From Syntrophales bacterium (lineage in GTDB: Bacteria; Desulfobacterota; Syntrophia; Syntrophales; CG2-30-49-12), in the NCBI GenBank assembly GCA_030018935.1, contig JASEGZ010000016.1, forward strand, positions 1-38,035: 38,035 nucleotides of DNA, in the 5' to 3' direction. The translations under genes and the position numbers were made by a program. Shown here in pieces: positions 12,329 through 34,757 of the stretch. Numbering within the stretch: position 1 is the stretch's first letter; each line of letters begins with the position of its first letter. Under the pieces are notes generated by a model. That model was not told the DNA's origin. It searched no databases and saw nothing but the letters and a program-made list of their open reading frames with translations.

Positions 12329-12523
12329 GGTAATTGCTCAGGCACAAAGAGACAAAGGCACATAGGCACAAAGTTGTAGGAATACGATCGGAATAGAGGA
12401 CACAACCTGTCCAAATACCGCTTTGTAAACATTTTATGGGAACTTAAGCAACTCATTCTCTTCAGATCTCTCGACTCTGTGCCTTTGGTGCTCTCAAGCC
12501 TTTGTGCCTACCTGAATAGTTAC
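12329..12523. repeat. TIR-bounded octamer-array element upstream of the EF-G paralogue
   Basis: Bounded by GTAATTGCTCAGG on the left and CCTGAATAGTTAC on the right (10 of 13 bases match as inverted repeats). It is the same terminus type as the elements at 26357-26480 and 34678-34757. The left interior holds 8-bp units such as GGCACAAA and GAGACAAA (four in a row from 12341). The right interior has TCTGTGCC/TTTGGTGC-type units. I see no clear flanking duplication. Confidence 0.6.
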
Positions 12524-23382: not shown

Positions 23383-25252
23383 CCACGTTGACATACTGTT
23401 TTTTTCTGATATATTTTACCTATGTTTATTCGCAAAGTCCCCCACACCGATCCAAAGAACGGATCCAGATATTATACGTACAAACTTGTTGAGTCCTTCC
23501 GTACAGAACGGGGACCGAGACAACGGGAGATTCTCAATCTCGGAACCGACTTCAACTTGCCTGAAGGGCAGTGGAGAGATCTGGCCAGGCGGGTTCCTGA
23601 GATCATCTCCGGTCAGGAGCGCTTATTCGATTGTCCTGAGGAGATTGAAACCCTTGCCAGGGTTTATGCGAGAAGGATTATTCGCCGGAGATCGTCTCTT
23701 GTCGGTGAAAAGAATGATTCTTATCATCTCCCTGATTACCAGATGGTTGATGTCAATAGCATCGGGGATGAAGATGTCCGTGAGGTTGGGGCTGAGCATG
23801 TGGTCTATGAGACCATCAGGGAACTTGAACTGAACCGAAAGTTTGAGGAATTAGGGTTCAGCAAACCCCGTATGGATGTTGCCATCGGGGTGATTGCCGG
23901 CAGATTGATCTATCCGGGTTCGGAAAGGGCCACCCATCTGTGGCTCAAGCATATCAGCGGTATCGATGAGCTTTTGGGGGCAGATTTCAGTACGCTGTCC
24001 CAGGATCAGGTCTATAAGGCAGCGGACATGCTTATCAGGTACAAAAGGGCTGTTGAGGAACACCTCTCTGTGAAGGAACGGAGCCTTTTTACCTTAAAAG
24101 AAAAGATCGTCCTGTACGATCTGACCAATACCTTTTTCGAGGGTTCCGGCAGATACAACGACAAGGCACGCTTTGGCTGGTCAAAGGAAAAGAGAAACGA
24201 CTGTCCCCTGGTTACGCTGGGGCTTGTCCTAGATGATGGTGGTTTCCCGAAGAGAAGCCAGATGTTTGAGGGCAATGTGAGTGAGCCAAAGACCATGCAG
24301 CGGATGATCCAGGGTCTTTCCTCCAATACCATGTTTAAACCGGTGGTTGTGATGGACGCGGGTATTGCTACAGGAGAGAATATCCGGTGGCTTAAGGATC
24401 ATCAGTACGACTACCTGGTCGTCCTGCGTGGTAAAAAGAAACCCCTTCCGGAAAACATGGTCACGGTGAAAGAAGATGGAGATCGGATAGTCAAGGCAGC
24501 CCTGGTGAGGCATGATGAAACAGGCGAAGTCGAGCTGGTATATCATTCCACAGGAAAACAGGAGAAGGAAAGGGGTCTAAGGAACCTCTTTCAGCAGCGC
24601 TTCGAGTTCGAACTCCAAAAGTTACAGGCAGCCCTTTCCAGGAAGAACGGCACCAAACGCTACGAGAAGGTGATAGAGAAGATTGGTCGTCTGAAGGAGA
24701 AGTTCAAAATGATCGCCCACAGGTATGACATCGCTATGGAGAAAGACGAGAAGAACAGGGTTACTGCCATCACCTGGCATCAGAAGGAAACGGAAGACAC
24801 CGATGGCATCTATTGGATCCGCACCAACAGGGAAGATTTCAGAGAGCAACAGATATGGAACATCTTCAACATGCTGACAGATGTTGAAGATGCCTTCCGG
24901 TGTATGAAATCGGAGTTAGGGTTAAGACCTGTCCATCACCAGAGAGAACACAGGGTTGATGGGCATCTATTTATTACCGTCCTTGCCTACCATATCCTAC
25001 ACACCATCAGGTTCAAGCTCCGGCAAAAGGGTATCCATGACTCCTGGAAGACCCTTCGTGAAGGTTTGTCCACCCATGTGAGAGTCACAACATTACTAAA
25101 GAGACAGGACGGCAGGGTGATCTATATCCGAAAATCATCCCGACCGGAGGCGTATCATAAGAAGATCTATGATGCCTTGAATCTCTCTTATCAAGTGGGC
25201 AGACGGATTAAGACTATCGTCTAAAAAATCAATCTGTAGTGTCAAAACGTGG
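23383..25252 (+). mobile_element. insertion sequence, IS1634 type (IS4 superfamily)
   Basis: One complete transposase gene occupies almost the whole element. Imperfect terminal inverted repeats are visible: CCACGTTGACATACTG at the left (23383 onward), and on the right the reverse complement reads CCACGTTTTGACACTACAG (25234-25252), differing by a 2-base gap. The exact ends and the flanking duplication could not be fixed by eye. It lies between the mutase operon and the rubrerythrin region. Confidence 0.7.
23422..25224 (+). CDS. IS1634-type transposase
   Basis: 600 aa, an RNase H-fold DDE transposase of the IS4 superfamily. A helix-rich N-terminal part has typical phrases (RKVPHTDPKNGSRYYTYKLV, GPRQREILNLGTD). 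Candidate catalytic aspartates are in YDLTNTFFEGSG (about residue 230) and VVMDAGIA (about residue 310). The YREK-like C-terminal region is around EDAFRCMKSELGLRPVHHQ, followed by HRVDGHLFITVLAYHI. The frame is intact from ATG 23422 to TAA, so the element may still be active. There is no strong ribosome site. Confidence 0.9.
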   Translation: MFIRKVPHTDPKNGSRYYTYKLVESFRTERGPRQREILNLGTDFNLPEGQWRDLARRVPEIISGQERLFDCPEEIETLARVYARRIIRRRSSLVGEKNDSYHLPDYQMVDVNSIGDEDVREVGAEHVVYETIRELELNRKFEELGFSKPRMDVAIGVIAGRLIYPGSERATHLWLKHISGIDELLGADFSTLSQDQVYKAADMLIRYKRAVEEHLSVKERSLFTLKEKIVLYDLTNTFFEGSGRYNDKARFGWSKEKRNDCPLVTLGLVLDDGGFPKRSQMFEGNVSEPKTMQRMIQGLSSNTMFKPVVVMDAGIATGENIRWLKDHQYDYLVVLRGKKKPLPENMVTVKEDGDRIVKAALVRHDETGEVELVYHSTGKQEKERGLRNLFQQRFEFELQKLQAALSRKNGTKRYEKVIEKIGRLKEKFKMIAHRYDIAMEKDEKNRVTAITWHQKETEDTDGIYWIRTNREDFREQQIWNIFNMLTDVEDAFRCMKSELGLRPVHHQREHRVDGHLFITVLAYHILHTIRFKLRQKGIHDSWKTLREGLSTHVRVTTLLKRQDGRVIYIRKSSRPEAYHKKIYDALNLSYQVGRRIKTIV

Positions 25253-25430
25253 CCCCAATGAACCATAACATGTTGATTTTACACAATTATTTTTTGCAGC
25301 CATGAAGTTGGGTTAAAAAAGATTAGGCGGGTAGATGATAATCTTCTGAAGGAAATCGTGAGTTGAATTGTGAATGCTGTCCGCCCGGATAAAATCGTCC
25401 TTTTGTTCCTATGGCTGGAGCGGTGAAGCA

Positions 25431-25583
25431 ATGGAGATCATTAACAGGGAATTGGAAGAGATGAAATTCGAACTCATTGATCCGGGTGTAAAAACTCAAT
25501 TTGTCCCTCATAAAGAGGCTCTAAAGGCGTGCTGTCAGCTTGGCAGGAAGATAGGGAAGCGCCTTGCCGCTTTAGAGGATTGA
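25431..25583 (+). CDS. small hypothetical protein
   Basis: 50 aa, not recognised. It is charged, with a central [19 protein letters not shown] stretch, a basic GRKIGKR segment and no membrane helix or signal. I chose ATG 25431, with GGAG about 10 nt upstream; an earlier in-frame ATG at 25374 lacks a ribosome site. It lies between the insertion sequence and the rubrerythrin gene on the same strand. It could be a small regulator, or a chance frame. Confidence 0.45.
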
Positions 25584-25681
25584 TCCGCAATGTCTGTTTG
25601 GCGGCTGGCTGTACAAAGAGAGAAAGGGGTTATAGGAAAGACCATTCAATTACGACTGTTTTAAAGAAAAGGAGGATGTAT

Positions 25682-26254
25682 ATGCAACTTAAGGGGAGCA
25701 AGACAGAGAAAAATCTGCTGACCGCCTTTGCCGGTGAGTCGCAGGCGCGCAACCGCTACACCTACTTTGCCAGCCAGGCAAAGAAGGAAGGATTTGAGCA
25801 GATTGCCTTCATTTTCGAGGAGACGGCCAATCAGGAAAAGGAGCACGCCAAGAGGGTCTTCAAGCTCCTCGAAGGAGGGGATGTGGAGATAACGGCGGCT
25901 TTTCCTGCGGGGGTCATAGGAAAAACAGCGGAAAATCTCAAGGCTGCCGCGGCAGGGGAAAACCATGAATGGACGGACATGTACCCCTCATTTGCCAGAG
26001 TTGCCCGGGAGGAAGGTTTCAAGGATATCGCCTCGATATTCGAGGCGATTGCTGTGGCCGAAAAGCAACACGAGAAACGCTACCTTGACCTCTTGGCCAA
26101 TATTAAAGGAGGCACAGTGTTCAAAAAAGCCAAGCCTGTGGTCTGGCGCTGCCGAAATTGCGGCTATCTCCATGAGGGAACTGAGGCACCAGATAAATGT
26201 CCCGCCTGTGACCACCCCCAAGCTTACTTCGAACTCCTGGCCGAAAACTGGTAG
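25682..26254 (+). CDS. rbr: rubrerythrin
   Basis: A non-haem diiron peroxidase that protects anaerobes from hydrogen peroxide, reduced through its rubredoxin domain. Of 190 aa, the N-terminal ferritin-like four-helix domain shows [16 protein letters not shown] and [14 protein letters not shown] in the first half and [13 protein letters not shown] in the second. These carry the Glu and His ligands of the diiron site. The C-terminal rubredoxin-like domain has a CRNCGY pair and a [11 protein letters not shown] pair. ATG 25682 is preferred over the ATG two codons earlier because AAAAGGAGG sits 6 nt before it. A cut-off desulfoferrodoxin start follows 35 bp downstream, suggesting a former oxygen-defence operon. 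Confidence 0.96.
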
Positions 26255-26289
26255 GAGACACGACATCAAAACACACAAGGAGAAGGGCA

Positions 26290-26361
26290 ATGACAAAGAT
26301 ATTAGAGATTTACAAGTGTGAGATCTGCTTATCTACACCGCTCAATCTTGATCCAGGGTAA
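26290..26361 (+). pseudogene. 5' remnant of a desulfoferrodoxin/desulforedoxin gene
   Basis: ATG at 26290 (AAGGAGAAGGGCA upstream) opens a 23-codon frame starting MTKILEIYKCEIC, which matches the start of desulforedoxin-type domains (MTKxLEIYKCxxCGN). Homology stops right after the second cysteine. The next residues are unrelated and the frame ends at a TAA lying inside the terminal repeat of the element at 26357. The rest of a superoxide reductase gene is absent. The position directly after rubrerythrin is a known neighbourhood for desulfoferrodoxin, which supports the reading. Confidence 0.6.
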
Positions 26362-26480
26362 CTGTTCAGGTAGGCACAGAGGTACAATGCTTAGCTGTTT
26401 AATCAGGAAATTAAGCAGCAAATAGGCAAGACAACTTTGTGCCTCTCAAGCCTTTGCCCCTATTAACCTGAGTAGTTACC
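26357..26480. repeat. TIR-bounded octamer-array element behind rubrerythrin
   Basis: Ends are GGTAACTGTTCAGG (26357-26370) and CCTGAGTAGTTACC (26467-26480), matching as inverted repeats at 12 of 14 positions. The interior contains 8-bp units (for example TTTGTGCC, TCTCAAGC, CTTTGCCC) and the 36-bp word shared with 12242-12277. Its left terminus supplies the stop codon of the truncated desulfoferrodoxin. No flanking direct repeat is evident. Confidence 0.75.
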
Positions 26481-26561
26481 CTTAATACCAAGGATATTTT
26501 GAACGAGGAGAGGGAAAGAAAAACTCTGAAGGGTGAAGAATTTTAAAGAGGGGGGGGAAAT

Positions 26562-33904: not shown

Positions 33905-34678
33905 ATGATGAAACGAATTCTCATCACCTCTAACATCTGGAGCAGTGAGCTTTCCAAGCTGGTTGCAAATGCCTTCCTGGCACAGAGAATATCTTCCATC
34001 AATGCCATCTCCGCCCTCTGTGAGAAGACAGATGCCGACATCACCGAGGTAGCCAGGATAGTGGGAATGGACAGCCGGCTGGGTAATAAATTCTTAAACG
34101 CCAGTGTCGGTTTCGGCGGTTCCTGTTTTAAAAAGGATATCTTGAACCTTGTCTACCTTTGCAGGCATTACGGTCTTAACGAGGTTGCCGATTACTGGGA
34201 GGGCGTTGTTAAGATCAACCAATACCAGCAGGACCGCTTCATCTCGAACATGTTAAGCGCCATGTTCAACACCTTAACCGGAAAGAAAGTATGCCTTCTT
34301 GGTTTTGCCTTCAAAGCCAATACCGGTGATACGAGGGAAAGCCCCGCTATTTTCATTGCCAGGAGACTACTGGAAGAACAGGCAGAGATCGTTATTTCTG
34401 ATCCGAAGGCCCTGAAAAATGCCAGAACTGATCTGGAGGAAATTGCCGGAAAGGTCAGTTATATCGAAGATCCACACGAGGCGGCCCGAGGTTGTCATGC
34501 CATCGCGGCACTTACAGAATGGGATATCTACCGGGATCTCGATTTTCAGAAGATCTACGACAATATGGCCAAACCGGCTTTCATCTTTGACGGCAGGAAT
34601 ATCCTTGACCATAAAAGATTATTTGAAATAGGCTTCAACGTTTATCCTATCGGCAAACCTGCATTGACTCATTTTTAG
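33905..34678 (+). pseudogene. UDP-glucose 6-dehydrogenase, 5'-truncated
   Basis: 257 aa that correspond only to the middle and C-terminal domains of the enzyme. The helical hinge (WSSELSKLVANAFLAQRISS) comes first. Then come the catalytic cysteine loop SVGFGGSCFKKD, the C-terminal UDP-binding domain with CLLGFAFKANTGDTRESPA, and ending YPIGKPALTHF. The N-terminal NAD-binding domain (about 200 residues with the GxGYVG motif) is missing and not present in any frame upstream. Homology begins at codon 4-5, exactly where the foldback repeat at 33679-33900 stops. There is no ribosome site before the ATG. It cannot be an active dehydrogenase. Confidence 0.82.
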
Positions 34679-34757
34679 TAACTACTCAGGTGGATAGACT
34701 GAAGGTGGAAGACTGTTAGGACACTTCAGTCTCCAGCCTAAATACCTGAGTAGTTAC
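34678..34757. mobile_element. 80-bp TIR element with target duplication at the ugd stop
   Basis: Perfect 14-bp terminal inverted repeats, GTAACTACTCAGGT (34678-34691) and ACCTGAGTAGTTAC (34744-34757), are flanked by a perfect 8-bp direct repeat CATTTTTA (34670-34677 and 34758-34765). The interior shows 7-bp units (GACTGAA, GGTGGAA, GACTGTT). The insertion falls exactly on the stop codon of the truncated UDP-glucose dehydrogenase, which is rebuilt from the duplicated TA and the first G of the element. It shares its termini with 12329-12523 and 26357-26480. Confidence 0.85.

Follow-up and report, generated by a model that had tools for sequence, protein, structure and literature searches.

What is left of a gene once most of it has been lost, and what removed the rest, is the question raised by a short open reading frame (ORF) in the genome of a Syntrophales bacterium (assembly GCA_030018935.1). 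The stretch of DNA analysed, here called the window, comprises positions 1 to 38,035 (38,035 nucleotides) of contig JASEGZ010000016.1. Within it, the ORF begins 35 bp after the stop codon (26252-26254) of an intact rubrerythrin gene and consists of 13 codons that read like the start of desulfoferrodoxin (Dfx), followed by codons for ten unrelated residues. The ORF is very probably the 5' stump of a dead dfx gene that was once paired with the preceding rubrerythrin gene, and it is referred to below as the relic. Table 1 collects the coordinates of the relic and its neighbours.

Table 1. Features of the window around the relic ORF
Feature	Position	Strand	Basis or remark
IS1634-family transposase gene	23422..25224	+	NCBIfam transpos_IS1634, 278 bits (cut-off 100); precedes the flavodiiron remnant
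Flavodiiron protein (A-type flavoprotein) gene, 3' remnant	25386..25583	+	Residues 333-396 of 397 plus frame end
Intact rubrerythrin gene, 190 aa	25682..26254	+	NCBIfam RuberyRbr and Pfam
Ribosome-site-like AAGGAG of the relic ORF	26277..26282	+	Read from the sequence
Relic ORF, 23 aa	26290-26361	+	MTKILEIYKCEICLSTPLNLDPG
Surviving dfx codons (13), MTKILEIYKCEIC	26290..26328	+	Pfam, position-specific score and DNA identity to a same-order genome (G018)
29 bp with no recognisable source, separating the dfx break from the repeat	26329..26357	+	Shuffle test and single-copy search
122-bp mobile repeat (MITE-like)	26358..26479	+	Inverted ends GTAACTRYTCAGGT, GTAACT...AGTTAC

The rubrerythrin gene scores 313 bits against NCBIfam RuberyRbr (cut-off 200), and Pfam recognises both a Rubrerythrin and a rubredoxin-like domain in its product. 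The AAGGAG sequence ends 7 bases before the ATG of the relic, and the relic's stop codon (TAA, 26359-26361) falls inside the left terminal repeat of the mobile repeat. The original prediction, that a desulforedoxin-domain start of 13 codons directly follows rubrerythrin, that its frame closes in the terminal repeat of an inserted element, and that a ribosome site and a 23-aa peptide are left over, is borne out, with the residues matching a Dfx start far above chance.

Similarity to desulfoferrodoxin

Relic residues 2-13 align with positions 1-12 of the Pfam Desulfoferrod_N model at 15.6 bits (E 0.012), a score that lies below the 23-bit cut-off and covers 12 of the 36 model positions. Such a score could in principle come from a random short ORF that happens to resemble a Dfx start, an explanation whose likelihood is close to nil, since the relic scores far above all other 13-mers examined, and its ATG, its ribosome-site-like sequence, its strand and its position behind rubrerythrin are all as expected for dfx. 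The scoring used a position-specific matrix for residues 2-13 built from the 56 distinct proteins encoded by 72 dfx genes of the loci fetched. The relic reached 30.0 against a Dfx family median of 36.0, and the next distinct 13-mer scored 9.5 among 253,038 six-frame 13-mers drawn from the window and from 30 loci of the same genome, some of which overlap the window. By this measure the relic belongs by descent to the Dfx N-terminal family. Twelve of its 13 residues (the exception being Ile 4) are found among the commonest residues at their position in the 56 Dfx proteins, and the best single Dfx starts are identical to it at 10 of 13 residues. The motif Y-K-C-x-x-C is kept; each of the two cysteines is present in 56 of 56 Dfx proteins, and the tyrosine and lysine in 54 of 56. 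Its DNA agrees with the dfx start of a genome of the same order (G018, locus L030) at 33 of 39 bases.

Residue 14 is glycine in 56 of 56 Dfx proteins and leucine in the relic, and the similarity to Dfx therefore ends at codon 13; relic residues beyond 14 bear no resemblance to Dfx. The dfx codons from 14 onward are gone from this site. Compared with the two-iron superoxide reductases (Dx-SOR; PF06397 plus PF01880), the relic shares the first 13 residues, the start, the ribosome-site-like sequence and the place directly 3' of rubrerythrin. It differs in having only the CxxC (C10, C13) of the desulforedoxin (Dx) site, without the CC that forms its second cysteine pair, and in having lost the entire superoxide reductase domain at the C-terminus (PF01880). 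The literature mentions superoxide reductases whose Dx site is incomplete (PMC3116461).

With its start codon and ribosome-site-like sequence, the relic could still be translated into a 23-aa peptide with one CxxC. Such a peptide should not be a superoxide reductase, because the second cysteine pair and the catalytic domain are missing. That it has instead taken on a function as a micro-protein, for instance as a dimer that partners rubrerythrin in metal binding or redox chemistry, is hard to credit.

Rubrerythrin and dfx as neighbours in other genomes

The arrangement of the two genes elsewhere was examined in loci obtained by scanning contigs of genomes with a match to the window rubrerythrin, taking the best 80 among the matches listed. 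An intact dfx gene lies directly downstream of rubrerythrin, on the same strand and at a distance of about 25-219 bp, in 29 of these 80 loci, and the rubrerythrins of these direct pairs are 73-81% identical to that of the window. In a further 16 of the 80, dfx is elsewhere in the locus, in 34 no dfx was seen within the locus DNA scanned, and in one the sequence is too short to judge. The rubrerythrins closest to that of the window among the matches listed (82-83% identical, at four loci, L127-L130) are not directly paired with dfx, which lies 4.7 kb downstream at one of these loci, 3.7 kb upstream at another and was not seen at the remaining two. With 29 of 80 loci directly paired and the four nearest without a direct pair, the rubrerythrin-dfx pair is common but not universal. 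Its order also varies within the Syntrophales: in one genome (G002) rubrerythrin is followed by a second rubrerythrin-like gene and then by dfx, and in another (G005) dfx comes before rubrerythrin. Across 41 genomes (the own genome, one of the same genus and 39 of the same order), PF01880 scored above its cut-off in 16.

An intact pair of this kind is what the original prediction proposed to look for, in its case among close relatives. The observation that would speak against it, the same short peptide in relatives that have no dfx at the site, was not made: no ORF shorter than 100 aa with a start like that of the relic turned up in the 109 loci scanned, made up of the 80 and 29 from a second search, some of which hold rubrerythrin-like genes only. 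The relic is most simply read as a dfx cut short where the gene usually sits, because an intact dfx directly follows rubrerythrin in so many of the best loci listed. The 35-bp spacing and the strand, typical of direct rubrerythrin-dfx pairs, argue for it as well; the four nearest rubrerythrin loci without a direct pair, the 34 of 80 loci in which no dfx was seen, and the other sequence that follows the flavodiiron gene of the one same-genus genome covered (G001) count against it.

The break in dfx

The original prediction linked the loss of superoxide reductase to a deletion mediated by the repeat. The loss itself stands, with a 5' stump of dfx at the site and no Dfx C-terminal domain found in the 96% complete genome; the repeat as its cause is partly supported. 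The break lies at 26328/26329, which is 29 bp before the repeat and not at its end. When compared with dfx genes and their 3' flanks, the intervening 29 bp are not recognisably dfx (62 of 100 shuffles align as well), and the 28-mer 26329-26356, allowing up to 3 mismatches, occurs once in the own genome (at the site itself) and is absent from the same-genus genome and from one other (G011). Because sequence that is single-copy and not recognisably dfx separates the break from the repeat, these are two junctions, and a single repeat-mediated deletion accordingly does not follow.

The same evidence bears on whether the locus is real, as opposed to two unrelated pieces joined at the repeat during assembly. 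The assembly is in 90 contigs and the repeat has many copies, conditions that invite such an error. However, this copy shares no exact match longer than 30 bp with any of the other copies examined in the own genome, and the break lies in single-copy sequence 29 bp off, a position that a mistaken join at the repeat would not explain. An assembly artefact is thus most improbable.

The mobile repeat

An inserted element was correctly predicted next to the relic; its exact ends lie one base inside the predicted bounds (26357-26480) on each side. The copy at dfx carries the inverted ends shared by a MITE-like family, GTAACTAYTCAGGT, which occur (with up to 1 mismatch) at 59 sites in the own genome and 175 in the same-genus genome, compared with 4 and 1, respectively, for the reversed pattern used as a control. 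To characterise the family, 59 stretches (39 from the own genome and 20 from the same-genus genome) were fetched, chosen for family ends or a repeat match, with one chosen for an IS66 fragment; they do not include every copy. These stretches and the window yielded 42 end pairs, of which two share one right end and a few have poor ends; none was dropped. In 13 of the 42 pairs the two flanking 8-mers are the same, and in 22 they agree at 6 or more positions out of 8, against 22 of 1722 mismatched control pairs, from which it follows that the family makes 8-bp target duplications.

At the copy beside dfx no such duplication is present, the flanks (GATCCAGG and CCTTAATA) matching at 2 of 8 positions. 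Recombination between two copies could account for such flanks, and so could a deletion that extends outward from one end; neither is proven, because 19 of the 41 other pairs likewise agree at no more than 5 positions, and an absent duplication is therefore common. Two further copies of the family lie in the window. One, of 80 bp (34678-34757), has a perfect 8-bp duplication, CATTTTTA, on both sides, and it begins on the final base of an ORF (33905-34678); the flanking 8-mers of the other (12330-12523) match at 4 of 8 positions. After the repeat at dfx, an open frame at 26481-26546, LNTKDILNEERERKTLKGEEF*, reads like the end of a gene without its start and has no Pfam match. The 82 bp that follow the repeat show no sign of an origin in dfx genes or their 3' flanks, with 53 of 100 shuffles aligning as well.

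IS66-type elements have ends that start with GTAA. The repeat resembles MITEs with IS66-type ends and 8-bp target duplications in being short, in having inverted ends that start with GTAA, and in its family-wide 8-bp duplications; the copy at dfx differs in having none. An IS66 parent was sought in both genomes. The own genome has no match to the IS66 transposase (PF03050), and the same-genus genome yielded only a broken fragment with 2 stops (contig C151); some 370 bases from this fragment there is a 25-base piece of the repeat, and no ends matching the repeat were found within the 3 kb read.

The region 26340-26500 is predicted to fold at -59.8 kcal/mol (z -6.64; this was the only copy folded). 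A fold of this strength, together with the start and ribosome-site-like sequence, would suit a stump that has been kept for a job, with the repeat hairpin at the end of the rubrerythrin transcript stabilising it or insulating it from the downstream hydrolase gene, and the 23-aa peptide as a by-product or leader. We regard this as very unlikely: the inverted ends by which the repeat family is defined are enough to give a hairpin, and a like peptide was absent from all 109 loci scanned.

A flavodiiron remnant upstream

On the other side of rubrerythrin lies a second broken gene. The flavodiiron remnant, a 64-residue C-terminal piece, is 83% identical by tblastn to a protein of the same-genus genome, and at the DNA level window positions 25399-25600 are 91% identical to the end of the corresponding gene. 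The homology starts sharply on the left, near CCTTTTGTTCC, and at E 1e-5 this C-terminal piece is all that the own genome contains of the protein. In the same-genus genome (locus L246) the gene is intact, encodes 397 aa and scores above the cut-off for PF19583; its best NCBIfam match, flavorubredoxin, is below the model cut-off. It is preceded by a rubredoxin-like ORF, named by motif only, and the sequence after it differs from the window. The sequence immediately left of the remnant, which by eye resembles a nucleotidyltransferase start joined at a shared stretch, had no Pfam match, and no claim is made for it. No terminal inverted repeats of the IS1634 element were found in the stretches searched.

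Given the intact gene in the same-genus genome, the remnant alone in the own genome and its sharp left end, this bacterium most likely once had flavodiiron protein, rubrerythrin and Dfx here, with rubrerythrin alone intact now; all three may have been intact at one time. Clusters of flavodiiron protein, rubrerythrin and superoxide reductase are represented by one genome (G015) with a flavodiiron-type gene, rubrerythrin and a gene with a superoxide reductase domain, in that order and on one strand. The same enzyme types adjoin in the window, which differs in keeping only rubrerythrin intact. The flavodiiron remnant next door, as another rearrangement, is a further point in favour of a dead dfx.

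Remaining oxygen-defence genes

Whether another dfx copy persists elsewhere, as the original prediction left to be checked, was answered by a search of the own genome (96% complete), in which the Dfx C-terminal domain (PF01880) has no match at E 0.01. The same-genus genome likewise has no match to this domain at E 0.01, nor one to the window rubrerythrin at E 1e-20, and therefore cannot date or order the loss of dfx. Two PF06397 matches on another contig of the own genome (C25; L240 889-1175, minus strand) were rejected as dfx. They are separate, adjacent short desulforedoxin-like ORFs of 46 aa and up to 66 aa, both with a complete CxxC...CC motif, the 46-aa one having been scanned with Pfam.

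The own genome also contains a superoxide dismutase ORF of 192 aa, of the Fe/Mn type (Sod_Fe_C, 91.9 bits), on a contig (C61) whose membership in this genome rests on the assembly; the same-genus genome has no match to this family (Sod_Fe_C) at E 0.01. Because this ORF is present, losing superoxide reductase need not equal losing superoxide defence, and the loss of Dfx is plausibly tolerated.

Interpretation and significance

If the relic is the stump of a dead dfx, a deletion is the most likely cause of the removal of the rest of the gene. The absent target duplication suggests that a rearrangement through copies of the mobile repeat may have taken place before, during or after that deletion, and the upstream flavodiiron gene would have been lost in a separate event. 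Superoxide dismutase and rubrerythrin would be the enzymes that now deal with superoxide and peroxide.

A literature search returned nothing tied to this locus, and no claim is made that it is absent from print. As a gene relic it is ordinary, if a clean example, the families involved are known, and it leaves the understanding of them unchanged. Its value is as a well-preserved loss of a superoxide reductase gene, adjoined by a broken flavodiiron gene, in a bacterium that keeps rubrerythrin and superoxide dismutase. As such, it suggests which enzymes of oxygen defence are droppable, and that mobile repeats adjoin the loss.
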